Positions 72 through 21,858 of a DNA stretch of 22,685 nucleotides are shown here, one piece after another. Numbering within the stretch: the stretch's first letter is position 1; every line of letters starts with the position of its first letter. The stretch comes from a virus. Both the position numbers and the translations under genes were made by a program. Under the pieces are notes generated by a model. That model was not told the origin of the DNA. It worked only from the letters and a program-made list of their open reading frames with translations, and did not search any database. The stretch is from positions 1-22,685 of IMG/VR virus record IMGVR_UViG_3300042453_005799. One strand, written 5' to 3'.

Positions 72-87
72 ATTTTACCCTAGTTCC
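72..87 (-). promoter_or_regulatory. GGAACT-type promoter, copy 1
   Basis: On the minus strand it reads GGAACT, AGGG, TAAAAT. It lies between the 3' end of tRNA-Thr and the ATG at 65, with 6 nt between TAAAAT and ATG. It is one of seven copies in the window with the same 4-nt spacing. Confidence 0.65.
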
Positions 88-92
88 TAAAA

Positions 93-167
93 TGGAGGCC
101 CCGCCCGGGTACGATCCGGAGATAGCTGATTACAAATCAGCCGTTTTACCAACTAAACTACAAGGCC
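93..167 (-). tRNA. tRNA-Thr (anticodon UGU)
   Basis: The minus strand folds as a 75-nt cloverleaf. The acceptor stem GGCCTTG pairs with CGGGGCC (two G-U pairs), the D arm is GTTT/AAAC, the anticodon stem GCTGA/TCAGC encloses loop TTTGTAA (anticodon TGT), and the T arm is TCCGG-ATCGTAC-CCGGG. CCA is encoded at 95-93. The T loop begins with A instead of the usual T54, a small oddity. It presumably helps the phage read ACA/ACN codons. A GGAACT-type promoter sits 36 nt upstream, inside the end of the preceding gene. Confidence 0.93.
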
Positions 168-168
168 A

Positions 169-375
169 TTAATAACGAATATAAAATTCGTATTCATAAA
201 ATATTCTATCTAAGTTCCTTTTATCTAAAAGAGCAACAAACCCTTCCCAATCGTTGCAACTTTCATTCCATCCCTTTGCTATCATCTCTTTAATAATAGC
301 TGCTGTGGATAGTTTGTTATTAAAAGATTTTTTGAGAAAATCTATAACGTCATTTGTTATATTTAACTCTCTCAT
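169..375 (-). CDS. hypothetical protein, 68 aa
   Basis: Small acidic to neutral protein beginning MRELNITNDVIDFLKKSFNN, with no recognised domain. It ends 1 nt before the tRNA-Thr gene, and the last third of its coding sequence contains a promoter pointing at the tRNA. It follows the 61-residue membrane protein gene after about 40 nt. No Shine-Dalgarno is visible. Its status as a gene rests on position, strand agreement and tight packing with its neighbours. Confidence 0.6.
   Translation of the reverse strand: MRELNITNDVIDFLKKSFNNKLSTAAIIKEMIAKGWNESCNDWEGFVALLDKRNLDRIFYEYEFYIRY
203..218 (-). promoter_or_regulatory. GGAACT-type promoter, copy 2, for tRNA-Thr
   Basis: The minus strand reads GGAACT, TAGA, TAGAAT inside the 3' part of the 68-residue gene, 36 nt upstream of the mature tRNA-Thr 5' end. 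It would make a short precursor for RNase P trimming. Confidence 0.55.
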
Positions 376-415
376 GTTTAGTTTGAACTCAATAGTTTAA
401 GTAAAACTTGATCTA

Positions 416-601
416 TTATGCTTTTTTTAAACTCTCGACAAACTCAATCTGAGCCTTATTATCAGCTTCTCTCTTCTTTGAGTATGAGGCTATTGCTACA
501 TACAAAAATACAATTACAGATAATATAACGACTGCGATTAATTCGTCACGACCCTTACTAGACTTGCGAGTAACCCTTACACTGCTTAAGAATGGTCTCA
601 T
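416..601 (-). CDS. small single-pass membrane protein, 61 aa
   Basis: Residues about 21-40 (LIAVVILSVIVFLYVAIASY) form one hydrophobic segment. A basic N-terminus (RVTRKSSKGR) and a charged C-terminal tail (KKREADNKAQIEF) flank it. This is one transmembrane helix, and charge bias suggests the N-terminus is inside. The start ATG overlaps the upstream stop as ATGA, which implies translational coupling. Function is unknown; small phage membrane proteins of this shape can be holin-like or superinfection factors, but nothing here proves that. Confidence 0.65.
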   Translation of the reverse strand: MRPFLSSVRVTRKSSKGRDELIAVVILSVIVFLYVAIASYSKKREADNKAQIEFVESLKKA

Positions 602-1173
602 AATAGTTCTTTAATTTTTTCAATAGTACCAAAATCGTTATAGCAAAAATCGAAAATATATGGCTCAATATCTTCACTAAGATTATAATCAGCAATGAGC
701 TTATCATAATAATAATCTCTCGCTTTTTGTAGATTGGTTACTAGATCGCGTGTTTTAACTATCGCGTCAGCTACTGGCGTAGTTTCTGGATTAATAATTT
801 CTCCCTCTGTGCTAGTGGTAAAATCGCTAATTGACATTACAAATCCTCCTACAAGATGAGCTCTATAGTCGACCCATTTTGAATGATCTTCGCCTATACT
901 AGTATAAAATACTATATACCCGGTATATGGATAAAACTCCCACTCGTGAGAGATCTCTTCGTATCTAGGCAATCTATCAAACAGAGACTCACTGTCTGGA
1001 TTGCCATCGATAGCTTTATACTTACATCTTTTAACAAAAAGCTGCTTGTTCTCTCTAATTTCATATTCAAGCATAATGCAATCCAGATCTTTTGTTTGAA
1101 AGACTGGACCCTTGTCTTTAGGAAAAGAATCAGGAAGATCACACTTTACCGTAATTGTATCAAACATTCCCAT
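598..1173 (-). CDS. conserved phage protein with MGMFD N-terminus, 191 aa
   Basis: The frame is open further upstream, but the best start is the ATG at 1173, giving MGMFDTITVKCDLP. This N-terminus recurs in many phage proteins of unknown function. It overlaps the preceding 60-residue gene by 14 nt. The protein is soluble, rich in aromatics and acids, and has no catalytic motif that I recognise. It is part of the small-gene operon running from 2129 down to 169. Confidence 0.72.
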   Translation of the reverse strand: MGMFDTITVKCDLPDSFPKDKGPVFQTKDLDCIMLEYEIRENKQLFVKRCKYKAIDGNPDSESLFDRLPRYEEISHEWEFYPYTGYIVFYTSIGEDHSKWVDYRAHLVGGFVMSISDFTTSTEGEIINPETTPVADAIVKTRDLVTNLQKARDYYYDKLIADYNLSEDIEPYIFDFCYNDFGTIEKIKELL

Positions 1174-1342
1174 TTTCGTCAAAAATAAAATAGTTACTGA
1201 TTTCAAGAAGAATAGCTTCTTCAATTTTTTCTTTTATAGCTTCCTCTCCTGGGGTATCTGTATGCTTGTGAGCTCGATACCATCCAGCGGATATGCCTCT
1301 CTCAAGACAATCTTGCAATATTACATAGGTATTTGGTTTCAT
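1160..1342 (-). CDS. conserved small phage protein, 60 aa
   Basis: Short protein with the pattern ILQDCLERGISAGWYRAHKH, TDTP, then an acidic helix and a SNYFIFDE end. I recognise this pattern from small conserved proteins in many phage genomes, with no known function. Its ATG overlaps the upstream stop by one base (TAATG). The pattern conservation makes it a confident real gene. Confidence 0.8.
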   Translation of the reverse strand: MKPNTYVILQDCLERGISAGWYRAHKHTDTPGEEAIKEKIEEAILLEISNYFIFDENGNV

Positions 1343-1677
1343 TAATAGACGTATTTTTTATCGTAGCATTTTTGTTCAACTCTATCTACAAGATTACTAA
1401 TCTCTTTATCTTGCTCAGTCGTGATATCTTTCACAACATCATAATAAATTCTGATGCCTCCATATTTAACCTTAATTTGCTCAAACTCAACACAATTTGG
1501 CTCAATCTGCTGAATTGCGTCACAAAGAGCTTCTACCTCTGGAAACCATTCATCAGGAATATCTGCCCCCCAGCACATGCATGTCTCTCTCATATGGAGG
1601 TTAACGCGACGAAACATATCCGGATATTTATTAAATAAATTTTGCTCTTTTTCAGAAAATTTTTCAAATAAACTCAT
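1342..1677 (-). CDS. conserved phage protein, 111 aa
   Basis: Residues about 31-50 read ETCMCWGADIPDEWFPEVEA, and the centre has the motif KVKYGGIRIYY. This resembles a family of small phage proteins with a Cys-Trp-Gly segment followed by a Gln/Lys-Val-Lys-x-Lys/Tyr-Gly-x-(L/I)-Arg strand. Function is unknown. Cysteines at the N-terminal CxC and near the C-terminus could bind metal, but that is speculative. ATGA overlap with the upstream lipoprotein gene shows operon membership. Confidence 0.72.
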   Translation of the reverse strand: MSLFEKFSEKEQNLFNKYPDMFRRVNLHMRETCMCWGADIPDEWFPEVEALCDAIQQIEPNCVEFEQIKVKYGGIRIYYDVVKDITTEQDKEISNLVDRVEQKCYDKKYVY

Positions 1678-1868
1678 AGATGTTGCATTAGAGCGTTAGT
1701 AATGAGTAGAATATTTTGCAATGATAATTGCCGTCCTTGCGGGGGCATATCATTATTATATGATTCAATTATAGAGATATCATCTCTACGCATAAGCTCA
1801 GACCAGTCAGTGTCTGTAGTTTTACATGCCGATAGAAAACAAGCGACAAAAATTGCGAGATATTTCAT
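1674..1868 (-). CDS. small putative lipoprotein, 64 aa
   Basis: The N-terminus MKYLAIFVACFLSACKTTD is a short signal peptide ending in the lipobox LSAC, so Cys15 should be lipidated. The rest is about 49 residues with no known domain. The start follows the upstream stop by 3 nt and the end overlaps the next start by ATGA. Candidates include an outer-membrane spanin-like (Rz1-type) protein or a superinfection-exclusion lipoprotein, but it is far from the endolysin gene and lacks the proline-rich tract of many Rz1 proteins. Only the lipoprotein call is well supported. Confidence 0.68.
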   Translation of the reverse strand: MKYLAIFVACFLSACKTTDTDWSELMRRDDISIIESYNNDMPPQGRQLSLQNILLITNALMQHL

Positions 1869-1871
1869 AGA

Positions 1872-2129
1872 TTATACAGCGGATAGCTTTTCGAGAGCTC
1901 TACCTAGAGCAATTCTTACCCCCATCTTCTTATCGTAATTATCTTTGAGAGAGCATATAGCAAGGCCGGAGCAAAGCAAATTACCCTCCTTGTTATAAAT
2001 GTCAATCTTAGTTGATCCGCCTTTCTCATAAACACGCGACCTACCTTCATTATCTAGGAAGATATGTTGGCGTGAATGAAAAACACGAACCTTTAGTCCT
2101 TTTTGTCTCAGCGATTTTACTGTTTCCAT
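1872..2129 (-). CDS. conserved small phage protein, 85 aa
   Basis: Basic protein whose C-terminal half contains KGGSTKIDIYNKEGN, GLAICSLKDNYDKKMGVRIA and GRALEKL. This G-x-A-x-CS-x-x-D-x-Y-x-KK-x-G-x-x-IA-x-GRAL pattern is familiar from small phage proteins of unknown function. It is the first gene after a GGAACT-type promoter whose -10 box ends 6 nt before the ATG, so it should be made from a leaderless message. Confidence 0.75.
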   Translation of the reverse strand: METVKSLRQKGLKVRVFHSRQHIFLDNEGRSRVYEKGGSTKIDIYNKEGNLLCSGLAICSLKDNYDKKMGVRIALGRALEKLSAV

Positions 2130-2135
2130 ATTTAA

Positions 2136-2151
2136 ATTATATAAAAGTTCC
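2136..2151 (-). promoter_or_regulatory. GGAACT-type promoter, copy 3
   Basis: The minus strand reads GGAACT, TTTA, TATAAT, then TTAAAT and ATG. With standard -10 spacing, transcription would begin at or next to the ATG of the 85-residue gene. No TTGACA-like -35 is seen. Confidence 0.7.
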
Positions 2152-2162
2152 TTAATATTTGT

Positions 2163-2333
2163 TCATGCTATTTTTTGAATACACATTTCTAGCTCTTTAC
2201 ATGCTTGCTCGTTGCAGCATTTTTCTCGCGAACACTCGAATGGTAGTTTTCGCTTGCGAAAAATCCTATCATAGTTCGCTGCATATTTCTTTTGATCTAC
2301 CGGCCTTGGCCTATCTCCTTTACCCGCGCTCAT
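2163..2333 (-). CDS. small conserved phage protein (SAGKGDRPRPV type), 56 aa
   Basis: The minus-strand frame from ATG 2333 to TGA 2163 encodes 56 residues starting MSAGKGDRPRPVDQKKY, followed by ANYDRIF. I recognise the S-x-GKGD-x-PRPV...Y-x-x-NYDRIF signature from a widespread small phage protein of unknown function. Its ATG overlaps the upstream stop as ATGA. Five cysteines lie in the last 23 residues (C-x5-CC-x4-C-x5-C), which suggests a small metal site. It is easily missed because of its length. Confidence 0.82.
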   Translation of the reverse strand: MSAGKGDRPRPVDQKKYAANYDRIFRKRKLPFECSREKCCNEQACKELEMCIQKIA

Positions 2334-2596
2334 TGTTTTTTAAATTGAATATTTTTAGCAAAATCCGGGTCTCCGCTCCCGTTTCTTACATTCTCTTTAT
2401 GAATTTCTCTTAGAGAAGGGTTTATAGATGTAAATCGCACATAATGCTCAACATCTAGCCAGGAGACGCCAATAGCATTAGCAATTAGATTTACAATTAT
2501 TAGCCATAAAATATTTCCAAATACCCATATTTCCGCAAATATAATAAAGATGGCTGTAGTTGTTTTCTTTCGTATTTCGTTAACTAAGTTGATCAT
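2330..2596 (-). CDS. membrane protein, 88 aa
   Basis: After a short charged N-terminus (MINLVNEIRKKTT), residues about 14-43 are strongly hydrophobic (AIFIIFAEIWVFGNILWLII and following VNLIANAIGV). This fits one long or two short membrane helices. The C-terminal 40 residues are polar. No family is recognised. The end overlaps the 56-residue gene by ATGA and the start lies 13 nt after the upstream 42-residue gene, so it belongs to the same operon. Confidence 0.65.
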   Translation of the reverse strand: MINLVNEIRKKTTTAIFIIFAEIWVFGNILWLIIVNLIANAIGVSWLDVEHYVRFTSINPSLREIHKENVRNGSGDPDFAKNIQFKKQ

Positions 2597-2609
2597 ATAA
2601 TGTTTTTAA

Positions 2610-2738
2610 TTAACTCCCCATACAGATTTTAAAACATAAAATAAGAACTTTATTCATAAGCCAAGTATACGCTAAAATGCATAATAAGGCAATTGGAATG
2701 CTTATAGCACATCCAGAGCATCCTTTTTTATATTTCAT
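2610..2738 (-). CDS. tiny Cys-rich membrane protein, 42 aa
   Basis: ATG 2738 to TAA 2610 encodes 42 residues. It begins MKYKKGCSGCAISI, has one hydrophobic stretch (PIALLCILAYTWLM), then a second hydrophobic stretch, and carries five cysteines including CSGC near the N-terminus. The start overlaps the stop of the 69-residue gene in an ATGA arrangement, as in four other junctions of this operon. That overlap is the main evidence that it is translated. No family is recognised. Confidence 0.55.
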   Translation of the reverse strand: MKYKKGCSGCAISIPIALLCILAYTWLMNKVLILCFKICMGS

Positions 2739-2944
2739 TTCTTACTCTCTTTTACAATTTTATCTACGACGTATGCAGGCAACACTTCTAAATTTTCCTT
2801 TGTAAATGTTTGAATTACAGCGTCATCGTCATTAACGAGTATTCGACGAACATATCCATCTTCAACAAGTTTATTTGCGATTGGAGCGATTAGTTTTCTA
2901 TCCTCTTCACTGTTCCCCTTCGTTAGGCCTAGAATGATACTCAT
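2735..2944 (-). CDS. hypothetical protein, 69 aa
   Basis: Small soluble protein, MSIILGLTKGNSEEDRKLIA then ANKLVEDGYVRRILVNDDD, predicted mixed alpha/beta. It overlaps the end of the metalloprotease gene by 38 nt. The end is coupled (ATGA) to the 42-residue membrane protein. No known domain is seen. The start at 2944 gives the only ATG that keeps the full frame. Confidence 0.6.
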   Translation of the reverse strand: MSIILGLTKGNSEEDRKLIAPIANKLVEDGYVRRILVNDDDAVIQTFTKENLEVLPAYVVDKIVKESKK

Positions 2945-3389
2945 TTGCTATATTTTTACTATACGATAAACAATTATATATTTCAAGGGCTTTTATTCCG
3001 ATTAATTCCCAATTTTCTGCTTCAAGTTCTGCGTCTTCGCAATCCCACCTATTCGGTCTTTTAGCTACCATACTATTACTCGGCCTGTTATCAATCATAT
3101 ATTGCTTCCAATGACAGAATTCGTGAAAGATAGTTTTTACAAATTCTTCATATGTTTCATTATTATTGATGTTAATGTACAATGTATTGCTATAATTATA
3201 CCATCCCGCAAGGGAGTCGTCCTCGCGTATTTTTACATAAATGTTAGTTGTGCCTTTAGCTCTATTTGGCTTTATCCAATTGTATGCTGTTGTTAAGCAG
3301 TAGGATAAGAGCTTCCAATCAGTCGATACATTATATCTTGCAATAGCCTTTTCGTTGTCCTTGTCATTTAATCGCAACCGTATTTTCAT
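2907..3389 (-). CDS. putative zinc metalloprotease (HExxH), 160 aa
   Basis: Counting from the ATG at 3389, residues 89-93 read HEFCH within the helix VKTIFHEFCHWKQYM, a classic HExxH zinc site. An acidic helix CEDAELEAEN (117-126) about 25 residues later could supply the third ligand in the gluzincin or SprT-like manner. The upstream part is a beta-rich N-lobe with a GWYNYS hairpin before the helix. No signal peptide is seen, so the enzyme would act in the cytoplasm. A longer frame exists from a TTG at 3428 but ATG 3389 is preferred. It overlaps the radA-like gene by 26 nt. The peptidase fold is inferred from the motif; the substrate is unknown. Confidence 0.7.
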   Translation of the reverse strand: MKIRLRLNDKDNEKAIARYNVSTDWKLLSYCLTTAYNWIKPNRAKGTTNIYVKIREDDSLAGWYNYSNTLYININNNETYEEFVKTIFHEFCHWKQYMIDNRPSNSMVAKRPNRWDCEDAELEAENWELIGIKALEIYNCLSYSKNIANEYHSRPNEGEQ

Positions 3390-4293
3390 AATTTGCGTGT
3401 TTCCAGATAGCTGTATCTCCGCGACCAAACTTAACTAGAGTCCCATCTTGAACTAGAGCTCTCAATAGATACCCAGCGCGGGTCGCATCTATATTTAGTT
3501 CTTTGCACACCCTGGCAATAGTAATTCCAGGCGGCTCTTGTAGAGCTTTGATCTTCTCAAACTCTTCATCCTTACGTTTTGCTTTAGGTATCGAAGTAGA
3601 ACTCTTCGGCTCAACCTTCCTGTCAAAGTCGAACCCGCCATAGCCAAAATACATTGAAACCTCAGCGAGAGATCCATAGCGATTTTTCGTGGTAGTAATA
3701 GTTCTAAACGACGTATCATCCTCATCGATAGAAATATCCATATTGATATCTACGGCATGAGGAATAGTCGTCGAACCTTTGTACATACCGTTCTTCGTAA
3801 TATGAAGAATAATACACATGGCAGTTTCATGTTGCTTGCATGCGCTAACAATGCGACCAATAGCGGCATCTTGACCGGTTCTATTAAGCCGGGCGCCGTT
3901 TTCTGACAATGTCGGAAATGAATCGAATACTACATAGTCCATATCCTCCATGAACGAAATAAGCCTATCAATATCAGTCTCGCTTGCGACATACACATTC
4001 GAGATATTAAGACGCTTACAAGTATAAGCGATCATTTCAACAGATTCTTCTCCGGTAATATAAGCTGTCTTATATCCATTATTGGAGAGAGATTCACATA
4101 GTTGAAGCAATAGAGTGGTTTTACCCGATCCCGGTGCAGCGGCGATAGTCGATACCGAGCCAGGTAGAATACCTTCGCCTCCATATAGAGTATCAAGCTG
4201 CGAGATTCCTGTAGCCATTCTGCTAAAGAACGAAGCAGGAACATTAATTTCACTAACCTTAGTTAACTTAGTTTTGTTATGATTAATTATCAT
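3364..4293 (-). CDS. radA-like: RadA/Sms-like RecA-fold ATPase with C-terminal winged helix, 309 aa
   Basis: The N-terminal part matches the RadA/Sms core: GISQLDTLYGGEGILPGS (29-46), Walker A APGSGKTT (53-60), GEES (81-84), Walker B YVVFDSFPT (120-128), and the RadA signature KNRYGS (203-208; KNRFG in bacteria). Bacterial RadA also has an N-terminal zinc finger and a C-terminal Lon-protease-like domain; both are missing. Residues about 238-305 instead look like a winged helix (ITIARVCKELNI, ATRAGYLLRALVQDGTLVKF). A recombination or replication role, such as branch migration or strand loading, is inferred from the family. It is the first gene of the early operon, behind two GGAACT-type promoters. 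Confidence 0.82.
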   Translation of the reverse strand: MIINHNKTKLTKVSEINVPASFFSRMATGISQLDTLYGGEGILPGSVSTIAAAPGSGKTTLLLQLCESLSNNGYKTAYITGEESVEMIAYTCKRLNISNVYVASETDIDRLISFMEDMDYVVFDSFPTLSENGARLNRTGQDAAIGRIVSACKQHETAMCIILHITKNGMYKGSTTIPHAVDINMDISIDEDDTSFRTITTTKNRYGSLAEVSMYFGYGGFDFDRKVEPKSSTSIPKAKRKDEEFEKIKALQEPPGITIARVCKELNIDATRAGYLLRALVQDGTLVKFGRGDTAIWKHANYENTVAIK

Positions 4294-4319
4294 TTGTTTG
4301 TTTTTTATTGTTTGATATT

Positions 4320-4335
4320 ATTTTATCAAAGTTCC
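4320..4335 (-). promoter_or_regulatory. GGAACT-type promoter, copy 4, for the radA-like gene
   Basis: The minus strand reads GGAACT, TTGA, TAAAAT, 26 nt before the ATG at 4293. The leader is A-rich with no Shine-Dalgarno. Confidence 0.68.
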
Positions 4336-4414
4336 TTAATTTTAACTCTGCACATTAAGGAAGAAAATACAGTCCAAATTTTTTATTGGCTGCTCTAATC
4401 TTTCCTTTAATAAT

Positions 4415-4430
4415 ATTATATTAAAGTTCC
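4415..4430 (-). promoter_or_regulatory. GGAACT-type promoter, copy 5, upstream tandem
   Basis: The minus strand reads GGAACT, TTAA, TATAAT, immediately after the endolysin stop and 95 nt upstream of copy 4. It is preceded by the small palindrome CCCTTTTAAAGGG (4429-4441). The 140-nt gap 4294-4433 holds only these two promoters; I see no ORF or clear RNA in it. Confidence 0.6.
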
Positions 4431-4433
4431 CTT

Positions 4434-5201
4434 TTAAAGGGTTGCGAGAGCTTCTTTCAGCTCGCTCACTGGAGCGATAGTCTGTCGAGTAGCAGAATCA
4501 TATCGTGCTCTTTCAAGCCAATGATTATTATATAGATAAAGTTTACCCTCACGTTTTAAAAGGCTAGCAGCCGTTTTAAAATCCACTTTACGCTCTCTCA
4601 TCATGAAATCAACAACAGATTCAAATTTATCTTGAGGATTTACGATAGGGACCGGGGGAGGCGATACTAAAACTGTATTGGCTTTAATGAGATTAAGAAT
4701 CCAGTCTTTGGTAACTTTCTTTCCCGGACACGACTTAGATGTTTTGGGATCGTCTCTATGAAAGAGAACTGTCTTAGATGAGGGCTCAACCCCGATCCAC
4801 TGCAATAAATCTGCAGTACATTGAGCTGTAACCTTCCAGCACTCCAATCCTCTACCAGAAAGCGGATCTTCTACATCATAGTCTCCTAATACTTCAATGC
4901 CTATAGACGAAGAGTTAAAAGAAACTGCGTGAATACCAGGGGTAGTAAGAGGAGTCATTCCGAATATTTCATTCTCATCAATAAAGAGATGAGGCCCTCT
5001 ATTCCATCCTAACTTGTTCTTGTAATATGATGCAATGTTGTTAATATGCTGAATGGTAAGACCTGTTGGTCTTTGAGCAAGCGAAGGGGCTGAACAGTGA
5101 TGAAGCGTCACAGTTTTGACCCAAGATGGTTTACTTATAGTTTTAAGATAGTCTTTAAAAGAACTATTTGACCAGACTTTCCCGACGTTTGCGTATGACA
5201 T
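4434..5201 (-). CDS. endolysin, N-acetylmuramoyl-L-alanine amidase, 255 aa
   Basis: The N-terminal domain (about 25-175) is an Amidase_2/T7-lysozyme type zinc amidase. Ligands fit His34 or His35 in VTLHHCSA, His148 in LFHRDDP, and Cys158 in SKSCPGKK; Lys156 occupies the catalytic Lys place of T7 lysozyme. GWNRGPHLFIDE (65-76) and SIGIEVLGDY (99-108) are typical core strands. After a proline-rich linker (SPPPVPIVNPQ), residues 190-255 form a small extra domain, possibly for wall binding. It cuts the bond between MurNAc and L-Ala of peptidoglycan. There is no signal peptide, so it would need a holin, not identified in the window. The start sits 5 nt after a late-type promoter box. Confidence 0.9.
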   Translation of the reverse strand: MSYANVGKVWSNSSFKDYLKTISKPSWVKTVTLHHCSAPSLAQRPTGLTIQHINNIASYYKNKLGWNRGPHLFIDENEIFGMTPLTTPGIHAVSFNSSSIGIEVLGDYDVEDPLSGRGLECWKVTAQCTADLLQWIGVEPSSKTVLFHRDDPKTSKSCPGKKVTKDWILNLIKANTVLVSPPPVPIVNPQDKFESVVDFMMRERKVDFKTAASLLKREGKLYLYNNHWLERARYDSATRQTIAPVSELKEALATL

Positions 5202-5249
5202 AAAAATATTTAGGTGGATAACACGAAACTATCCACCTAAAATATTTTT
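5202..5249 (-). terminator. hairpin terminator after the DUF932 gene
   Basis: TTAGGTGGATA (5210-5220) pairs with TATCCACCTAA (5230-5240) around a 9-nt loop. The stem extends through flanking A/T tracts with one bulge. Read on the minus strand it directly follows the DUF932 stop and ends in a U-rich run. The stem contains the endolysin late promoter box. Confidence 0.8.
5207..5214 (-). promoter_or_regulatory. late promoter box for the endolysin gene
   Basis: The minus strand reads CCTAAATA, then TTTTT and ATG (5201). The TAAATA core and the 5-nt spacing match the other late genes. The first two bases deviate from TATAAATA, perhaps because they also form the terminator stem. Confidence 0.5.
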
Positions 5250-6083
5250 TTATGCTGCTTTTAGATACTCGAGCGTCTTGGTAGAAAGAGTATTGAACGT
5301 AAGATTACGAATAAACTTGTTAGGAGAAGTTTTTTGATGGGTTTCAAACTCAGTCACTGCATTGAGAGCATCCCACTTCGTGGCGCCTTCGTTAGCAATA
5401 CCTCCGCCAAACTTGAGCATAATCTTCTCTCGCTTGGTTTGAATCCGAGAACTCTCGTCCTTATCTTTAGGGATAATAGTCTCAACAAGCTTCACCATAT
5501 CGTCCTTGGTGAAGCGCTGATTGCGAAGAGTTTCAGCAGTTTTAGCAAACCCAGTAGCATACTCGATATTGAAAGCAATATTTGCTCGAAAGTCCTCAAC
5601 ACGCTGATCGAAGTTAGTGCTATGCCGCAGAGAAGGCGATCTACTCTCTCTCGCATCCTTCATCACCAAATGAAGAGCATTGGTACAAGCAATACGAATT
5701 GTAGAGGGAACGATCTTATTTGAAGATTTGCCTCTATGATCGATAATAGTATAGAAATATCCTTCGACAGGGTCAGAACTAATACCAATATCGCCGATTT
5801 TACTCTGAATAACGAGCTGAGATCCAGTGCTATTTTCAGCAAAGCCGACATGGTCAATATGAGCATTAATACCTCTACAGGCAGTCTCAATAGTATCGAC
5901 CATTTCATCAATCTGAATAGGTCGGTAGATGTTAGAGCAGATACCAATATGATTATTAGTATCGTCCCGGGTTAAGCTAAACAGCTTCGGGATTTGAATC
6001 CCTGCCGCGGTAAACAGCGGCTGCTTAGTAACGTTAAAATGAGGAATATCCCCCAATCCATTTATTTGTTTGAATACTTTCAT
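5250..6083 (-). CDS. DUF932 family phage protein, 277 aa
   Basis: The pattern fits the DUF932 / phage-plasmid-like family: ICSNIYRPIQIDEMVDTIE near residue 48, an early strand block, then STIRIACTNALHLVM and SPSLRHSTNFDQRVEDF. The family is common in phages and plasmids; its biochemical role is not established. It is a single-gene unit, with a GGAACT-type promoter upstream and a strong hairpin terminator directly after its stop. That suggests a separately regulated and probably abundant early product. Confidence 0.8.
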   Translation of the reverse strand: MKVFKQINGLGDIPHFNVTKQPLFTAAGIQIPKLFSLTRDDTNNHIGICSNIYRPIQIDEMVDTIETACRGINAHIDHVGFAENSTGSQLVIQSKIGDIGISSDPVEGYFYTIIDHRGKSSNKIVPSTIRIACTNALHLVMKDARESRSPSLRHSTNFDQRVEDFRANIAFNIEYATGFAKTAETLRNQRFTKDDMVKLVETIIPKDKDESSRIQTKREKIMLKFGGGIANEGATKWDALNAVTEFETHQKTSPNKFIRNLTFNTLSTKTLEYLKAA

Positions 6084-6093
6084 TGTACTTTCG

Positions 6094-6109
6094 ATTATAT
6101 GTTAGTTCC
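6094..6109 (-). promoter_or_regulatory. GGAACT-type promoter, copy 6, for the DUF932 gene
   Basis: The minus strand reads GGAACT, AACA, TATAAT, then 10 nt to ATG 6083. This leaves a leader of only a few bases. The box overlaps the last codons of the upstream 62-residue gene. Confidence 0.7.
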
Positions 6110-6283
6110 TTTTTCTTTATTTTTTGATTTGTTAGCGATAATGTTAACAGCGCTATATTCATCAAACCCTTCTTCAATAAGTCTGTCGACTATTTTTTTT
6201 ATATTTGTAAAGATTTCCCCTCTAAAGTGAAACTCTCTTCCCCCTGGCAAGTCTATAACCTTTAATGAAACAAAGTCAATCAT
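6095..6283 (-). CDS. hypothetical protein, 62 aa
   Basis: Small protein starting MIDFVSLKVIDLPGGREFHF, followed by an amphipathic helix and ending in a Lys-rich tail. It overlaps the end of the helix-hairpin-helix gene by 8 nt. Its own 3' end carries promoter copy 6. No domain is recognised; coding status rests on tight operon packing. Confidence 0.58.
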   Translation of the reverse strand: MIDFVSLKVIDLPGGREFHFRGEIFTNIKKIVDRLIEEGFDEYSAVNIIANKSKNKEKGTNI

Positions 6284-6839
6284 ACAAAGGTATATTTAAC
6301 TTCGATAAAAGAACTTCTCCATTGGTTTGTCTGTAGTGGTAAAATTTATTAATCTGGTCAAGCAATGCCTTTACCATAGTTTTACTAGGGGTAGCGTTGC
6401 GCTTATTACGGTCACTTACAAAGTTTCTCAAATGACATTTGCATAGCAGAGCATATGGACACTCGTTACATCCCGTGGACGATCTAACAAGGTCAGGTCG
6501 CTGGCAGGTATCTTTAACCAAGTCTTCGTAAAATGCTATACGGGTATTGTATGACAGTTCATTAAAGGGTGTTTTTGGAGTTAGAGAAAAACTAGAAATA
6601 TACTCGGTCAACTCAACAAGTTGCTGCTGCTTAGTTTTCTTCTTCTCCCTTGCTGGTAGCTCAATACCGAGCTTTTTAAGAGTATTACCCCCAATGCCTT
6701 TAATTTTTAGCAAATCCTTTGCACTCTTAATAGTATATTTAGATCGGTAAGAAATAAGCCTATTTGCTGTATTCTTACCAATACCAGGAAGCTTAACTAG
6801 TTCTTTAAGATCCAGGGTGTTAAAATCATCTATATTCAT
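6276..6839 (-). CDS. helix-hairpin-helix protein with Cys cluster, 187 aa
   Basis: The N-terminal 60 residues hold two helix-hairpin-helix motifs, LPGIGKNTANRL (17-28) and IKGIGGNTLKKLG (46-58), as in ComEA-like or (HhH)2 DNA-binding domains. A Lys-rich linker (KKKTKQQQ) follows. The C-terminal half has a cysteine cluster: C112, C124, C127, C133 and C135 with H136 (GCNECPYALLCKCH). This could bind zinc or an iron-sulphur cluster, as in some nucleases and glycosylases. The HhH part supports sequence-independent DNA binding. The combination is not one I recognise, so no enzyme activity is assigned. It lies beside a RecB-like nuclease gene. Confidence 0.7.
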   Translation of the reverse strand: MNIDDFNTLDLKELVKLPGIGKNTANRLISYRSKYTIKSAKDLLKIKGIGGNTLKKLGIELPAREKKKTKQQQLVELTEYISSFSLTPKTPFNELSYNTRIAFYEDLVKDTCQRPDLVRSSTGCNECPYALLCKCHLRNFVSDRNKRNATPSKTMVKALLDQINKFYHYRQTNGEVLLSKLNIPLYD

Positions 6840-7047
6840 GGAAATTTACTGAAATGACATTAGCAGGGGTTCTTTGAATGGATTCATCTATTAGGGTTAT
6901 AATGCTAGCAATTTCTCCTAAGCTAACATCATCTTCAGAAATAGTTTCGTAAATAACCTTTTGCTCTTCGAGAGTAAGTAAATGATAAACACATACGAAG
7001 TCAAATATATTTTTACACAGACCTAACTTAAGATCGTTTAATTTCAT
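6826..7047 (-). CDS. hypothetical protein, 73 aa
   Basis: Mostly helical acidic protein (LTLEEQKVIYETISEDDVSL near the middle). The best start is ATG 7047, which overlaps the upstream stop as ATGA; a longer frame from a TTG at 7056 is less likely. The end overlaps the HhH gene by 14 nt. No family is recognised. Confidence 0.6.
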   Translation of the reverse strand: MKLNDLKLGLCKNIFDFVCVYHLLTLEEQKVIYETISEDDVSLGEIASIITLIDESIQRTPANVISVNFHEYR

Positions 7048-7439
7048 TGATGCCAATAGTCATCGTCATTAGGAATCATAAACAGAAAGATATCTTCAAT
7101 CTCGAGAAAACTTTTTGTTGAGATATCGTCAACAACTTTGCTCATACTATTCTCCAATCTAACCAATCCGTTATACCCTTCTTCGCCAATTACATTTGAG
7201 CAATATGCTTTTGCATCAAATATTTTATTAAAATTATATTCAGACGATAATTGCTCTGCAAAGTTCTCGCAAATATAATCTAAAATACGTCTATATCTTG
7301 ATGATTGCGATGGAGAAAGCTCTTTTAAAAGCCTTACTTTACAGTTAGTTTTTGGCGCCCATTTAATTGAATCAATAAATTGCCAAAATAAATTGATCTC
7401 GTTACTATCGAATGTGTTTAAGCACTCAGTTAATTTCAT
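7044..7439 (-). CDS. hypothetical protein, 131 aa
   Basis: Soluble, mainly helical protein, MKLTECLNTFDSNEINLFWQ at the start and an acidic end (IEDIFLFMIPNDDDYWHQ). It overlaps the nuclease gene end by 4 nt and is coupled to the next gene by ATGA. It is the first gene behind GGAACT-type promoter copy 7, so it can be expressed apart from the nuclease. No domain is recognised. Confidence 0.65.
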   Translation of the reverse strand: MKLTECLNTFDSNEINLFWQFIDSIKWAPKTNCKVRLLKELSPSQSSRYRRILDYICENFAEQLSSEYNFNKIFDAKAYCSNVIGEEGYNGLVRLENSMSKVVDDISTKSFLEIEDIFLFMIPNDDDYWHQ

Positions 7440-8185
7440 TGGTTATTTTCTTTTTCGTTCATTGTTTTTATATTATAGAAAAGTTCCTTTTGGTATTTAT
7501 TTGATAAAATTTTTTGAATGTCCGATTTTAAATACGGCATATAAAACTCCTCGACGATAGAAGTATTATCGGGATTCTTCTTGAGATAAATTATTTTCAG
7601 TTCTTCGCATTTTTTGTTAGAGAGCTCTTCTTTCATATAAGCATACAAACTTAATTGAAGGGCGTAATTACTATATTCGCAATTCACTAAATGATCAACT
7701 GGGGAAAGTAAAAACTTATCCGTTGTAAATGTATTAGTAAATCTGAACTTTTTGTTTGTCTTTAAGTCCCAGACTTTAAATGTATCTTTTCCTTCTAGTA
7801 TTATATCAGCCATCCCTGCTACTCTAAAATGATCATTATACAAAACTTGTTCAGAATGTATCGTATACTCTTTATTTTTATTGAGCTGATCTTCTATATA
7901 GCTTATAAGCTCTTGCTCTTCCCCTGTTGACACTCTCGATTCAATATAGGTCTCCATTATCTTATGGATAGCAGTGCCGCGGGTTGTTGATATTCTATTT
8001 AGATCTGCCCAATATGCTTTTACTTCTTCAACAAGAAGACCCTCTCTCCTTGCTACATTAGCTGCTTGGCCGTCGAGATCGAACTTTGGCTTATATTGCC
8101 CGAGTAGTGTCGTAACCGAGATATAGTTTTCTCCTGTTCGAGAGTTAGTGTATCTGTGTTCCTTATCATTAAAAACAACGGGCAT
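7436..8185 (-). CDS. RecB-like PD-(D/E)XK nuclease, 249 aa
   Basis: The motifs of the RecB/Cas4-like nuclease superfamily occur in order: GTAIHKIMETY (70-80, His73), VAGMADIIL (122-130, Asp127), VWDLKTNK (138-145, Asp140 and Lys142), and ALQLSLYAYM (176-185, the QxxxY motif). The length is typical of single-domain phage exonucleases of this type. No iron-sulphur cysteines of Cas4 are seen. It likely degrades or processes DNA ends in replication, recombination or host DNA turnover. Its start lies beyond a 36-nt gap with no recognised promoter. Confidence 0.85.
   Translation of the reverse strand: MPVVFNDKEHRYTNSRTGENYISVTTLLGQYKPKFDLDGQAANVARREGLLVEEVKAYWADLNRISTTRGTAIHKIMETYIESRVSTGEEQELISYIEDQLNKNKEYTIHSEQVLYNDHFRVAGMADIILEGKDTFKVWDLKTNKKFRFTNTFTTDKFLLSPVDHLVNCEYSNYALQLSLYAYMKEELSNKKCEELKIIYLKKNPDNTSIVEEFYMPYLKSDIQKILSNKYQKELFYNIKTMNEKENNQ
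7472..7487 (-). promoter_or_regulatory. GGAACT-type promoter, copy 7
   Basis: The minus strand reads GGAACT, TTTC, TATAAT, 32 nt before ATG 7439. It lies inside the 3' end of the nuclease gene. Confidence 0.66.
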
Positions 8186-10716: not shown

Positions 10717-12216
10717 TTAAAAATGATATGTTGGCTCTAATAATTCCCAACCTAATGATTCTAGCTCATTAATATCAGTTTCTTCTATGCTATCATTAAA
10801 AACAACTGGCATACCGATACTTTCTTTATTATTATCAGCTAACGTATAAACTGATTGAGGGTTAGAGAAATATCTAAGACCATAATCAAGCGGTCTAATA
10901 ACTCTGGGCTTACCATTTAAATCAAGCTCAACAATTTCAAAATATCTTTCTACAATATCGCTATGTAATATCATAAGAGCCCAGGTCAATGCCATTACTC
11001 TATCGTCGTGGAAACCAGGCTCAGCTGCCCAGCTTTTATTTGGTTTTCTAATGAAATGTTTAAACTCATTCAAGCATTCCTTGCTGTATATTCTTAAAGA
11101 GTCTAAATCGTTCATCCAATATCTCATATTAGCTATTGCTTGATATTTTGTATTAGTATGAGATATCATGCCATGCTGCTCTCGCTTTCTATTAGCTTTT
11201 CCAGCTCCATATGAAACGATATTATCGTAATGCTCTTCCATTACAAGCTTGTCAATAATTTGAGCTCCTGGCCCGTTACGCTCTATTAATGCGAGTGGGT
11301 TGCCATAATGGGATAAAACTTCCTTTACTTTTGTAATAAAGTTGAAGGGAGATATATCATTTGCGGCATATTCTGCGACTTGCTCAATGCATTGTAAATC
11401 TGTAATATCGAGGATTTCAATAATAGAAAAATCTTGACCGATCCCTTCTGCAATATCTACTCCCGCTACATATACCCGCTCTGGGTCTGGTGATTTGTAT
11501 ATTCTATATGCCCCATCGTCGAGTGTTAAATCTGGCTCGCATAGACGCATTTTAAACTGCTCAAGCTGCTCGTAGTTAATCGATGATTGCCCGGCAGAAT
11601 GAAACTCTAGCTCAAACTCTTGCGCCCATAAGTCTTCGCTTTCCAGGGATGATTTGGTGATTCTTGCCCATTCCGCATCTCTGCCAGGTATTTCAGACCA
11701 ATGGATTCTCAATGGAGCCCATCCATTTTCGCCGCGTTCAGCTCCAGACCATAACTGATAGAATAAGTTATCAGTCCCGTTCGGGGTAGAGGCGATTATT
11801 ATTTTAGATTTCTTGGAGGCAGAAATAATAGGATATACAGCAGCCCAAAACTCTTTCATGAGGTGGGTATTGTGGTTTGATATATTATTGCCGTAAAATG
11901 TGCGGCAATCTGCTACATTGGCCACATCATATAATTTACACTTTTTAATAGATTTAATAGACACGACAGTTGACGAGGTATTTTTATTATTATCTCTATC
12001 ATATACCTTTATATTTCGTCCCACGCTATCCTTAGCATAAACAAAATCTCCATCGGCTGTTTCAAACTCGTGGTCAGGCGACACAACGATATTATTTTTA
12101 TCTTCAAAGAAAACTCTAATAGCTTGCCGGTTTTTATATTCTTCAATTCCGCCGAAACTCTTCCATCCCTCCGAGGTCCTAATCTCCCAATCACATGTTA
12201 AATTATTTTTTTTCAT
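10717..12216 (-). CDS. terL: terminase large subunit, C-terminal gene (C-intein + C-extein), 499 aa
   Basis: Residues 1-116 are the C-terminal part of a split intein. The C-extein (383 aa) follows: THLMKEFWAAVYPI, then IIIASTPNGTDNLFYQLW (terminase motif III region, T4 gp17 TTTPNGLNHFYDIW). The RNase H-like nuclease has Asp in VAGVDIAEGIGQDFS, Glu in ALIERNGPG, and the Asp pair in FHDDRVMALTW, all matching gp17. It cuts concatemeric DNA during headful packaging. ATG 12216 overlaps the homing endonuclease stop by 14 nt; an upstream in-frame start at 12249 would lie further inside that gene. Spliced to the N-part, the terminase would be 563 aa (T4 gp17: 610). Confidence 0.93.
   Translation of the reverse strand: MKKNNLTCDWEIRTSEGWKSFGGIEEYKNRQAIRVFFEDKNNIVVSPDHEFETADGDFVYAKDSVGRNIKVYDRDNNKNTSSTVVSIKSIKKCKLYDVANVADCRTFYGNNISNHNTHLMKEFWAAVYPIISASKKSKIIIASTPNGTDNLFYQLWSGAERGENGWAPLRIHWSEIPGRDAEWARITKSSLESEDLWAQEFELEFHSAGQSSINYEQLEQFKMRLCEPDLTLDDGAYRIYKSPDPERVYVAGVDIAEGIGQDFSIIEILDITDLQCIEQVAEYAANDISPFNFITKVKEVLSHYGNPLALIERNGPGAQIIDKLVMEEHYDNIVSYGAGKANRKREQHGMISHTNTKYQAIANMRYWMNDLDSLRIYSKECLNEFKHFIRKPNKSWAAEPGFHDDRVMALTWALMILHSDIVERYFEIVELDLNGKPRVIRPLDYGLRYFSNPQSVYTLADNNKESIGMPVVFNDSIEETDINELESLGWELLEPTYHF
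11869..12216 (-). other. C-part of a split intein, 116 residues
   Basis: Seen in the translation: block-B-like VVSPDHEFETADGDFVYAKD (Ser in place of the usual Thr of TxxH; His49), block F LYDVANVADCRTFYG, and block G NNISNHN followed by Thr as the +1 nucleophile. There is no endonuclease domain inside. The part holding block B onward is all here, so the split falls just after block A. This is the arrangement known for the AceL-TerL intein, not that of DnaE inteins. Confidence 0.9.
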
Positions 12217-13414
12217 TAATTTCTTTCTCTGTAATGAGCTTAAACTCAAAATTATTTGCGTCGCACCATTTTTCCGCGGCTCTAAATTTTTGTATATTTA
12301 ATTCTGTTTCAGCAAACGCTGCGGGCTTTATTTCGTAAAGTATACGGGATGACATATCTACAAAATCCACTATATATATTTTATTCTTATTTTTATATAA
12401 GTATGGTATTCTTATACTCTCATATAAACAGTTAGGATTTTTTTCATGAAATATTTTTTCCCACTTTGATCTGTATCTTTTTATACCGGTTATATTCGAT
12501 GAAATTTCATCCCGGCAATTAAAATAATTGTTCGATTGGGGAGTAAATTTACCGTCTAGTATAGACTGCTTAATTCCCTGGCTAATACGTTGAGGAGTGC
12601 CAGACAATTTGTTTTTATAAATTATGTTCTCCCTATACCCTGGCTCTGACCATTTATTTTTTAAAGATTTGCTTATTTTTTGGCGCGTCTCCGTGGATAC
12701 TAGTCTGCCTCGATTTTTTTCGGCTGATTTTCTTCTCGCTTCAATCGTTTGCCCAGATAAATAAGATTTTCTATCTTTCGCATTTGCGGACATATAGCGA
12801 TGAGCACATTCTTTACTGCCGCAGGTCTTTAAAACACTAGAGCTATAGCTACATTTCTTACGAGAATTTAGGCAAAAAGGACATTTAATATCTTTTATAC
12901 ACATTACGCCTGCTAAAAATAAAACTCTAAATTTAAAGGGAGTGTCTAATGGAAGATCTTCAGTATATTTATATATCGAGGATATATAACAAATATTAAA
13001 TTTTGATATATCATTTATCCAGTTAACAATCCCGCCCGATTTATTAAAAATTGATTTTTTTAAATATTTCTTAGTTTCTTCTATATCAATTAATGGAAGA
13101 GAAAGAGATTCAATCGATGGTTCCCGTCTTATTGTATGCTTCTTTCCTTTTCTATAACCTATCTTAAGATTGACAAACGGTCTACATGGGATATCGTCTG
13201 GTGATATATTATGCGTGAGATGATATATTTTTTGTGCAAGAGGCGCGTCTTCTAATTTAGTATTATTAAACAACACTTTAATACTACACCATACTTTTTT
13301 TTTATTTCGTGACAGATAAAAATTAATTCGCGTATGATTTTTATTTAATTTGCCGCCGCATTCATTTTTAAAAAAATTTAACACCTCAAACCGGAGATCA
13401 GGATCGTAGATCAT
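12203..13414 (-). CDS. homing endonuclease between the terminase halves, PD-(D/E)XK-like with NUMOD3, 403 aa
   Basis: Residues about 60-110 share a HEG-type pattern with the other homing endonuclease here (IYHLTHNISPDDIPCRPF, IGYRKG). A zinc-finger-like cluster follows (CPFC about 175, later CGSKECAH). A NUMOD3-like DNA-binding repeat is at about 240-265 (RQKISKSLKNKWSEPG). The C-terminal catalytic part has helix SKWEKIFHE (about 317), strand IYIVDFVD (about 347) and LYEIKP (about 359), the E...D...ExK order of PD-(D/E)XK or TnsA-like nucleases. It starts 8 nt after the N-part stop and overlaps the C-part start by 14 nt. It should cut intein-less terminase genes and so drive spread of the whole cassette. 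Confidence 0.85.
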   Translation of the reverse strand: MIYDPDLRFEVLNFFKNECGGKLNKNHTRINFYLSRNKKKVWCSIKVLFNNTKLEDAPLAQKIYHLTHNISPDDIPCRPFVNLKIGYRKGKKHTIRREPSIESLSLPLIDIEETKKYLKKSIFNKSGGIVNWINDISKFNICYISSIYKYTEDLPLDTPFKFRVLFLAGVMCIKDIKCPFCLNSRKKCSYSSSVLKTCGSKECAHRYMSANAKDRKSYLSGQTIEARRKSAEKNRGRLVSTETRQKISKSLKNKWSEPGYRENIIYKNKLSGTPQRISQGIKQSILDGKFTPQSNNYFNCRDEISSNITGIKRYRSKWEKIFHEKNPNCLYESIRIPYLYKNKNKIYIVDFVDMSSRILYEIKPAAFAETELNIQKFRAAEKWCDANNFEFKLITEKEINEKK

Positions 13415-13422
13415 AATATTAT

Positions 13423-14064
13423 TTAGTCATTTTGGAACATTTTATATGCTTCTAATATAGGGATATTTTTGATTTCTCCGGTTTTAGTATTTCTAATCTC
13501 AATGAGCGTATCGCCACCTACACACTCAACGTGAGCTAACTCGTCCAATATCAACAAATCGCAAGAACTACCACGGCCAGCCGAACTTGTTGTTGTTGTA
13601 ATGCCTATTCGCGAGCCATTCTCAAACTCAGCAGATGTTTTTCCATATTCTTTTACAGGAGGCTTTAACCAGTTTGGAAGCTCCTCATACGCTAATCTGA
13701 CCCTTCTAAATATTTCTATCGCGGTTGATTCCTTGTTTGCTACGAGAAGTATTCTTTGATCAGAGTTAAAGCAAGCAACCCAGAGAGCAAATATAGTCAT
13801 AATAGTCGATTTCCCTATTTGTCGTGATGCACAAATAATGCTAAATCGCTCCTTTTCGAGCATTTTTAATGCTTTTTTCTGACATTTATGTAGCTTAATC
13901 TTATTTCTTCCTTCTCCAGGCGCAATAATATAGAAGAAGTTTTCTGCAAAATAGATGATATCTTTACTAGCTTTCTTTAAATCTGCTATCTGCTCCGGCG
14001 TATATTCGAACTTTGCCCCTCGCTTAGGCAGGTTGGGGTTGTTCATGTAGAACTGATCTTCCAT
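13423..14064 (-). CDS. terL: terminase large subunit, N-terminal gene (N-extein + N-intein), 213 aa
   Basis: Residues 1-180 are the N-terminal ATPase part: HKCQKKAL (Q-motif-like), Walker A ASRQIGKST (79-87), LLVANKESTA, and Walker B LLILDELAHVE (170-180) with the catalytic Glu175. Cys181 begins the intein. The gene then ends after 33 intein residues with a stop. Alone it lacks the motif III region and the nuclease, so it should work only after trans-splicing. It follows the 456-residue gene by 11 nt. A GTAAATA box overlaps that stop, but at 8 nt from ATG it is a poor fit to the late pattern. Confidence 0.94.
   Translation of the reverse strand: MEDQFYMNNPNLPKRGAKFEYTPEQIADLKKASKDIIYFAENFFYIIAPGEGRNKIKLHKCQKKALKMLEKERFSIICASRQIGKSTIMTIFALWVACFNSDQRILLVANKESTAIEIFRRVRLAYEELPNWLKPPVKEYGKTSAEFENGSRIGITTTTSSAGRGSSCDLLILDELAHVECVGGDTLIEIRNTKTGEIKNIPILEAYKMFQND
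13426..13524 (-). other. N-part of a split intein, 33 residues
   Basis: It begins CVGGDTLIEI (block A; Cys1 is the splicing nucleophile) directly after DELAHVE of the terminase Walker B and ends EAYKMFQND at the stop. At 33 residues it is far shorter than the roughly 100 residues of a normal N-intein. From memory, AceL-TerL has about 25 and 104 residues and begins in the same way. Confidence 0.92.
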
Positions 14065-16160: not shown

Positions 16161-18518
16161 ATGAGAACAATACAATCCCCAGGGGTAGAAATTCGAGAAT
16201 TTGATTTAACATCAAGATTAGCCACATTTGCAGGAACTGATGTCTTTGTTACCGGCTTTGCTGATAAGGGGCCGACTGATGAAGTTATTAGGCCTTCGAG
16301 CTTAAGAGAATTCGAGGCTATTTACGGCGTACCTAAAACTCCAGCTGAAAGATATTTTTATTACAGTGTTGACCCGCTTATTAAAGCTGGTGCAAACGTT
16401 TATGTTTCAAGAATGCCGTACGGAGCTAATACAGGGGAAGGGTTCGGATCTTACTATGGTGCGCTTGTTTATCCAGTCGTAGCTGTTACAGGGCCTGCTC
16501 TCTCTTCTCTTAGTACAGATCTTAATCAAACATCGGCAACTTATGTGCTCGGTCAACCAAGAGCTTTTAGTCTTACAAAAAGCGAATATCTTGGATGTTT
16601 GGATGGAACAGGATTTACCTGGAGCTCAACTGGATTGAGCGGCGCTAATATAAGTATGACTCTTAATGCTGGATCTTCTGCGCTTAGTTCGACTGTAAGT
16701 TTTAACAGTGTTAGCTCGTTTGGATATGCAGGACTTGTTGTTCTTAACAAGGGACAAACTACTGTTAATCCTAGATTCGAAGGATACTATGTCGGTATTG
16801 CTGATAATACCAATTTTAATCCTGCAACTCAATATGATTCCATTAGAAGTGTAAAGGTCTTAACAACATCTGCTTCTAACACAGGGTTAACTCTCAATAC
16901 TAATTTGCCTGCAAATAGAATTAACTTCGCTCTTAGTGGTTCGAATACTTCTAGCGGGACTGTATCAGAGGTAATGGAAGGATTAGCTGGATTTGATATT
17001 TCTCAAGCTAATTATAGCGATATACTTAACGTTGGGGTGTTTAAATTGCGCCAATCAATATTTACCCCCGACACAATTAAGCTTGACTACGTTCTTGAAG
17101 ATTCTGCTGCAGGATCTATAAGTTATGGGCGTCAAATTGGCGATCCTAACGGTGGTTCTCCTCTTCCATTCTTCATCGAAGATAGACTTAATCCGATGTC
17201 GAGAAATGTAACTGTGCTTGTTAATGATTATATTAGCAATAGAACCGTCGGTAATACAGAAGGTCTTGATTCTGACGGAACCCCGCTCAAGAAAGTAAGA
17301 GTTTATAACAATACTCTTATCGAGACATTGACACAATCCACAAGCGCCTCTTACGGCATTAGCAATACTATAATGAGTAATCTTTCCGGTCTCGGTGTCG
17401 CCGATAACTTAAACCCTATCGGAGCTTATTCGGATGAAACATTTACTAACAAGGATCTTGGATCTATTCCGTTGAAGCTTGATCGTATTCTCGATCTTGT
17501 ACGTAATGATGAGATTTATAATATCGATGTTTCTGTTGAAGCTGGTCTTGGCACTATATATGCTATGACTAAAGCTCTTGGTACATCTACATTTGATGAC
17601 ACAGCAACTGGAGCTGGTCTTACAACCGGTCTCAATGCTCTTCAAACTACCGGAAGTTATAGCGCTCCCGGTCTTGACACAGATTTGAGAGGAAACTACA
17701 ATACTATATTCTCTAAGTTCCAAACATTCGCTGAGCTAGAGCGTAAAGATCATATCTTTATTGCTGATCCTCTCAGACCGATCTTTGTTACTGGTGTCAA
17801 TAACAAAACTCTCAAAGATACTAGCAAAAACTGGTCTCAGCACATCTTTAGTGCTCTCAGACATCAGTTTAGCCTTGCTAACTCTTCGTATGCTACTACA
17901 TACGCTAACTGGGCAAGAGTCAATGATAAGTTCTCTGGCAGAGATGTCTGGGTACCGTTCTCTGGCATTGCAGCGTCTATCATGACTACAACCGATACTA
18001 ACAACGATCCCTGGTGGGCCCCTGCTGGGTTTACAAGAGGTCGGGTGTTCGGCGTTAACGATATTGCTGTTGAGCCTAATCAAAAGCAGAGAGATGATCT
18101 TTATAAGTTCTCTCTTAACCCGATTACAGCTTTCAGAGAAGGTATTACAGTGTTTGGTCAAAAGACCTTGCAGAAAATGCCTGGGGCGTTTGATAGAATC
18201 AATGTTCGTAGATTGTTCTTGTATCTTGAGAAAGTTACAAAAGCTACTTGTCGCTATTACGTCTTCGAACCCAATACCATCTTTACTCGTACCCGTGTTA
18301 AAGATGATCTTAGACCTCTTTTTGAGCGGGCTAAGAATAACGAAGGCGTTTATGATTATATAATTGTCTGCGACGAAAGAAATAATACTCCAGACGTAAT
18401 AGATCAAAATGAGCTTATAATTGACATATATATTAAGCCGGTAAGAGCCGCTGAGTTTATTTTGGTGAATTTCTATGCGACCCGCACTGGCGCGGACTTC
18501 CAAGAGTTTATTGGTTAA
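16161..18518 (+). CDS. 18: contractile tail sheath protein, gp18-like, 785 aa
   Basis: The N-terminus IQSPGVEIREFDLT is the sheath signature, followed by FVTGFADKGPTDEV and REFEAIYG. The C-terminal conserved core has NVRRLFLYLEKVTKATCRYY, FEPNTIFTRTRVKDDLRP, YDYIIVCDERNN and IKPVRAAEFILVNFYATRTG. These two parts carry the arm exchange that links subunits in contractile sheaths. The middle (about 120-400) is Ser/Thr/Asn/Gly-rich and variable, probably outward-facing domains. It is longer than T4 gp18 (659 aa). A perfect hairpin terminator follows. Confidence 0.95.
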   Translation: MRTIQSPGVEIREFDLTSRLATFAGTDVFVTGFADKGPTDEVIRPSSLREFEAIYGVPKTPAERYFYYSVDPLIKAGANVYVSRMPYGANTGEGFGSYYGALVYPVVAVTGPALSSLSTDLNQTSATYVLGQPRAFSLTKSEYLGCLDGTGFTWSSTGLSGANISMTLNAGSSALSSTVSFNSVSSFGYAGLVVLNKGQTTVNPRFEGYYVGIADNTNFNPATQYDSIRSVKVLTTSASNTGLTLNTNLPANRINFALSGSNTSSGTVSEVMEGLAGFDISQANYSDILNVGVFKLRQSIFTPDTIKLDYVLEDSAAGSISYGRQIGDPNGGSPLPFFIEDRLNPMSRNVTVLVNDYISNRTVGNTEGLDSDGTPLKKVRVYNNTLIETLTQSTSASYGISNTIMSNLSGLGVADNLNPIGAYSDETFTNKDLGSIPLKLDRILDLVRNDEIYNIDVSVEAGLGTIYAMTKALGTSTFDDTATGAGLTTGLNALQTTGSYSAPGLDTDLRGNYNTIFSKFQTFAELERKDHIFIADPLRPIFVTGVNNKTLKDTSKNWSQHIFSALRHQFSLANSSYATTYANWARVNDKFSGRDVWVPFSGIAASIMTTTDTNNDPWWAPAGFTRGRVFGVNDIAVEPNQKQRDDLYKFSLNPITAFREGITVFGQKTLQKMPGAFDRINVRRLFLYLEKVTKATCRYYVFEPNTIFTRTRVKDDLRPLFERAKNNEGVYDYIIVCDERNNTPDVIDQNELIIDIYIKPVRAAEFILVNFYATRTGADFQEFIG

Positions 18519-21552: not shown

Positions 21553-21858
21553 TCAATCATCAAAACCATCGTGCTCGTCTCTATAACCTTGCCCTGTTAT
21601 TAACTCCCACAAATGGCTACTATCAATATCTTGCAGCGGTTGAGCTTCCCTATTGTAAATTTTGACAGCTTGCTTCAACGCGTCAAGATCGTCTTGATTG
21701 CGAAGGAAATTCAACTCATTAGCAGCTTTAATATAGGTATCGTCTAAGTCCCAATTACCCTCGTTGTCATTTAAGATGTCGAGGATATCATCTAGAAGAG
21801 ACTGTTGTCTAGGCCGCTGGGAATATGCCTCCCAAATTAATTCTGATTCATTGTCCAT
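21553..21858 (-). CDS. hypothetical late protein with ELIWEAY N-terminus, 101 aa
   Basis: Acidic helical protein starting MDNESELIWEAYSQRPRQQS and rich in Asp and Leu. The N-terminal ELIWEAY is shared with the 229-residue protein, while the rest is unrelated. A late box 5 nt upstream marks it as late and fixes the start. It lies between the tmRNA and the RlpA-like gene. No family is recognised. Confidence 0.7.
   Translation of the reverse strand: MDNESELIWEAYSQRPRQQSLLDDILDILNDNEGNWDLDDTYIKAANELNFLRNQDDLDALKQAVKIYNREAQPLQDIDSSHLWELITGQGYRDEHDGFDD

Follow-up and report, generated by a model that had tools for sequence, protein, structure and literature searches.

The window, that is the whole stretch of 22,685 nucleotides analysed here, carries repeated copies of GGAACT-N4-TANAAT on its minus strand. 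This raises the question whether they form a promoter class of their own and, if so, what reads the GGAACT box. In this study, comparison with related virus sequences confirms the seven sequences as real copies of a predicted promoter family in a group of uncultured T4-superfamily phages, with the form WAAGGAACT-N4-TATAATA and no -35.

The phage and its seven motif copies

The window, a virus record of 22.7 kb, comes from a low-G+C phage of the T4 superfamily. It contains T4-like genes for sheath, tube and terminase, and membership of the superfamily is shown by homologues of gp17, gp18, gp45 and gp55 in the window and its relatives taken together. Among cultured phages the best match of the sheath is about 41% identical across one third of the length, the terminase reaches about 36% identity, and no nucleotide-level match was found. 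The large terminase gene is split (10717-14064). Its N-part (13423-14064) ends intein-like, its C-part (10717-12249) opens with an intein-like sequence ending HN/T, and a separate ORF (12203-13414) lies between them; the gene is uninterrupted in G001-G003. The arrangement in the window resembles a split intein accompanied by a free-standing endonuclease. Directly after the sheath gene, a 612-aa ORF (18595-20433) without a match in G001-G004 looks like a homing endonuclease. Proteins encoded at 20460-21149 and 21553-21858 share an N-terminal ELIWEAY-like or RLIWEAF-like peptide with a protein of relative G035 (79403-79648).

The sequence-only reading had reported seven copies of GGAACT-N4-TANAAT on the minus strand. 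Exactly seven are present, as compared to 0.03 expected (mean of 100 dinucleotide shuffles, maximum 1). A search of the window allowing up to two mismatches found 16 sites where 13.2 were expected, i.e. no excess over chance. Numbering TATAAT as -12 to -7 makes the seventh base past it +1. The copies and the genes around them are as follows.

72..87, minus strand: promoter copy GGAACT-AGGG-TAAAAT; predicted +1 at 65, the A of the next gene's ATG (leaderless); the gene runs out of the window
93..167, minus strand: tRNA-Thr (TGT), downstream of the copy at 203
203..218, minus strand: promoter copy GGAACT-TAGA-TAGAAT; +1 predicted near 196, which is 29 nt ahead of tRNA-Thr; lies within ORF 169-375, at its 3' end, a place kept in L001-L004
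2136..2151, minus strand: promoter copy GGAACT-TTTA-TATAAT; predicted +1 at 2129, the A of the ATG that opens ORF 1872-2129 (leaderless); position shared by L001-L004
3364..4293, minus strand: RecA/DnaB-like ATPase gene, apparently served by the tandem copies at 4415 and 4320
4320..4335, minus strand: promoter copy GGAACT-TTGA-TAAAAT; proximal of the tandem pair before the ATPase gene; leader predicted at about 20 nt, without a visible Shine-Dalgarno
4415..4430, minus strand: promoter copy GGAACT-TTAA-TATAAT; distal of the tandem pair, directly after the endolysin gene
5250..6083, minus strand: DUF932-like gene (phrog_1221), apparently served by the copy at 6094; anchor for finding relatives
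6094..6109, minus strand: promoter copy GGAACT-AACA-TATAAT; ATG of the DUF932-like gene 10 nt past the -10; predicted leader about 4 nt
7472..7487, minus strand: promoter copy GGAACT-TTTC-TATAAT; inside the exonuclease-like gene 7436-8185, at its 3' end, and ahead of ORF 7044-7439
16161..18518, plus strand: tail sheath gene; no box, ATAAATA-type late promoter just before the ATG (contrast class)

What the sequence-only reading had missed is that the ATG lies exactly 6 nt past TANAAT at copies 72 and 2136, which places the predicted +1 on the A of the start codon. At the tRNA promoter copy (203-218), which overlaps the 3' end of ORF 169-375, the bases are kept in relatives although nearby synonymous sites vary.

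Anatomy and distribution of the element

Taken together, 56 distinct copies give A/T-A-A/G-GGAACT-Y-T-N-A-TATAAT-A as consensus, without a -35. Strong information is limited to the stretch from about -25 through the RNA start, with almost none at -35 to -26; the absent -35 and the A-rich upstream sequence proposed from the window are thus borne out. T occupies -15 in 47/56 copies and G occupies -14 in 25/56, G or A being found at -14 in most. To avoid circularity, all TATAAT-N5/6-ATG sites opening a reading frame of at least 40 codons were aligned without requiring the box. This unbiased alignment yields WAAGGAACT at -25 to -17, with its strongest signal at -22 to -18 and no -35 signal. In accessory-rich contigs, GAAC is in place at 89 of 117 sites picked in this way. 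A TTGACA-like -35 is missing from most boxed promoters and belongs to a separate class in the same phages.

The spacing is rigid. Box and -10 are 4 nt apart in 135 copies of a first contig set, with at most nine at any other spacing, and in 457 copies of a second set, where no other spacing from 0 to 8 nt exceeds three. Variants of the box are GGAACC in G008/G010, GGAACA in G017 and, at the same spacing, C/TGAACT in a sister branch (G021, G025; the 44%-identity group). Conservation, fixed spacing and position before genes strongly support the proposal that these are promoters without a -35 whose additional box, at -22 to -17, is unlike that of MotA.

Relatives among the IMG/VR records were reached through the DUF932-like gene and the sheath gene. 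The motif occurs in 4/4 nearest records and in 12/22 further ones, several of the remaining being short fragments or users of a variant. Exact copies number up to 27 per record and nearly always lie on one strand; a reversed-pattern control gave a single match across those 22 further records. The motif is kept in relatives whose marker genes are 63% and 44% identical and whose sheaths are 46-90% identical. It lies in the accessory gene block and not in the virion gene block; in G002, G004 and the window the copies cease at the border with the virion genes. In the 197-kb record G027 it occupies 24-45 kb, apart from two isolated copies. Contigs fetched by the strict motif contained 245 further copies not used for fetching. 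A lack of enrichment upstream of genes had been named beforehand as the outcome that would speak against the motif; across the relatives, enrichment was found.

Viral contigs yield at least 120 stretches with the strict 18-base form. Among 84,980 bacterial species genomes (257 Gb) it occurs 13 times, about 7 being expected from base counts alone (an estimate). These 13 matches come one per contig, many apparently inside reading frames, and look like chance. Ten cultured T4-superfamily phages showed only background motif counts. The group is large and abundant and made up of uncultured T4-related water viruses; the collection searched contained no close relative from culture. A sheath scan for the host in genome contigs gave no relative. 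The promoter family is apparently undescribed in the literature searched, though many subscription papers fall outside that scope. Phage contigs also contain tmRNA genes (L043:5643-6036, with many tRNA genes alongside, and L212:15777-16193), and relative G008 has a QueC-like gene (L037:39-803), which may mean queuosine-type base modification.

Start-codon placement and the other promoter classes

The start codon lies 5-6 nt past TATAAT in 59/110 copies and in 155/245 independent copies (63%), 153 of the latter being ATG; the remaining copies mostly have leaders of tens of bases or tRNA genes downstream. At this distance the mRNA should be leaderless, and we predict leaderless expression from these promoters with high confidence. 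Shine-Dalgarno-like words are at background in the group (10% vs 9%) and in a distant branch (0% vs 13%), as compared to 72% of genes in T4, 38% in Syn9 and 49% in HTVC008M in the regions tested. The tRNA genes following some copies indicate that the element acts at transcription.

Two further promoter classes are found in the same phages. One, without the box, is TTGANN-N16-TATAAT-N5/6-ATG (TTGA-N18-TATAAT), accounting for 27 of 83 unboxed sites in core-rich contigs and with 61 matches in a further search; TTGA-N18-TATAAT-N6-ATG promoters belong to it. The other is the late-gene form ATAAATA-N5-ATG, with 116 occurrences at exactly 5 nt vs about 3 at most other distances. Both are placed against the start codon like the boxed class; in T4, over the regions tested, most late boxes are 27-28 nt away from the ATG. 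Since the group encodes the late sigma gp55, a gp45-like clamp and UvsY, the T4 late transcription scheme is likely retained, and gp55 fits the ATAAATA class.

Candidate readers of the box and known systems

The sequence-only reading had offered a phage activator, an altered sigma or an extended -10 used by the host polymerase as reader of the box. The near-absence of the strict form from bacterial genomes and the swap to C/TGAACT in the sister branch favour a phage-encoded reader. We think it probable, with some reserve, that the boxed promoters are a dedicated class working like T4 middle promoters, with a different box at a different position and a phage factor as reader. Host RNA polymerase would read TATAAT as the -10, and a putative phage-made protein, seated on polymerase or sigma, would read WAAGGAACT at -25 to -17 in the -35's stead, about 10 bp closer than MotA contacts its box in T4. 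Given the invariant 4-nt gap, the factor and sigma region 2/3 would touch DNA side by side from one rigid platform. The predicted +1 falls 6-7 nt past the -10, so that most such mRNAs would start at the AUG or within one nucleotide of it and be translated as leaderless messages. Timing of the boxed promoters would be pre-late. That the factor is a phage activator is our best guess from the analogy to MotA (PMC2988021) and the virus-only distribution.

Could host holoenzyme alone read GGAACT as a long extended -10, sigma contacting -22 to -13 at early promoters? The box adjoins the -10 with rigid spacing, most copies have T at -15 and G or A at -14, and the promoters serve the accessory gene block, which in T4 is early. 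Known sigma contacts upstream of the -10, however, stop near -17 and resume at -35, and the boxless TTGA-N18-TATAAT class in the same phages resembles a plain host class. The strict motif, moreover, is only near chance level in the bacterial genomes, which makes a host promoter class as its source unlikely, even if the host may be missing from the set searched. We regard reading by the host holoenzyme alone as unlikely. Part of the boxed signal could still be a TGn extended -10, given T at -15 in most copies and G at -14 in about half; and a host-made factor may read the box.

Less probable again is a phage-encoded sigma, instead of an activator, that recognises GGAACT-N4-TATAAT. In three box-rich records, G027 (L213:10743-11906, minus strand), G035 (L225:17823-18725, plus strand) and G042 (L316), the box-bearing cluster includes a gene for a full-length RpoD-like sigma. 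The proteins of G027 and G035 score 437-446 bits to the NCBIfam RpoD model, under its curated cut-off. A gp55-type sigma is present too, in G027 besides the RpoD-like one, but it suits the late class. As universal reader of the box the RpoD-like sigma was rejected, since it occurs in just 3/39 records, many of them fragments, and several box-rich ones are without it. Its region 4 recognition helix looks, by eye, like that of ordinary RpoD, and the protein more likely serves the TTGA promoters.

Two other explanations appear very improbable to us. Were the element a conserved protein-binding or replication site with TATAAT incidental, start codons would hardly pile up 5-6 nt past it; tRNA genes downstream of some copies, a strand bias that matches the genes, and the parallel -35/-10 and late classes placed alike also speak for a promoter. 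A phage single-subunit RNA polymerase reading the whole 20-bp element, just as improbable, would agree with its length and near invariance, but the -10 half is a sigma70-type box common to the TTGA class. The PF00940 (phage RNA polymerase) profile had no match in 12 records, nor in the control set.

For the favoured phage factor, two candidate proteins were examined and rejected. A conserved 112-aa family directly follows the gp45-like clamp (L217:12842-13180 and relatives L232-L311) and occurs in at least 586 viral stretches; it has no clear Pfam, PHROG, PDB or cultured-phage match. Its predicted fold (helix-five strands-helix, pLDDT 81.6) gave nothing significant in Foldseek, and no link to the box was found. 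An 81-aa Cys-rich protein, whose CxC...R...CxxC pattern recalls by eye the DksA/TraR zinc finger, has a poor fold (pLDDT 57) and no family match.

More tentatively, and with rather less than even confidence, we propose that all three promoter classes have moved against the start codon, that promoter-proximal mRNAs are leaderless and their genes without Shine-Dalgarno, and that the accessory genes are expressed through a new phage factor reading -25 to -17 beside sigma region 2/3. The boxed promoters give this abundant uncultured group of phages a promoter class that is clear and open to test. They point to an activator or sigma-remodelling factor at a position that MotA does not use, and to viruses in which promoter-proximal messages seem to lack leaders throughout. 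When genes are called and operons mapped in these genomes, an ATG 5-6 nt past the -10 can serve as a rule.

Among known systems, T4-superfamily cyanophages (Syn9 and others) likewise are without T4-like middle promoters, lacking motA and/or asiA (PMC5780444). They differ from the present group in that GAACT-N4-TANAAT is at background in Syn9, S-SKS1, S-T4 and P-SSM7, and Syn9 differs further by its Shine-Dalgarno-like sites and by having no start-codon-adjacent promoters in the 49 kb tested. ECF sigma promoters carry GGAAC in their -35, about 16 nt from a different -10; they share the letters GGAAC(T), but the box described here always lies 4 nt from TATAAT. Extended -10 (TGn) sigma70 promoters also have an extra signal right above TATAAT and no -35; their signal is at -15/-14, whereas the main signal here is at -25 to -17, with G at -14 in part of the copies. 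In T4 middle promoters (PMC2988021) the MotA box, (a/t)3TGCTTtA, has its centre at -30 and leaves 12 +/- 1 bp to the -10. The present group instead has WAAGGAACT 4 bp from the -10 and no TGCTT box at -30, and the start codon adjoins the -10. No MotA activation domain (PF09114) was found in 11 relatives of the window, some of which may be fragments, while the T4 control was detected. In both, a sigma70-type -10 is kept and the -35 is replaced by a phage-specific box (PMC2988021), tRNAs and non-structural genes are served, and late genes of the gp55/gp45 type are encoded by the phage.
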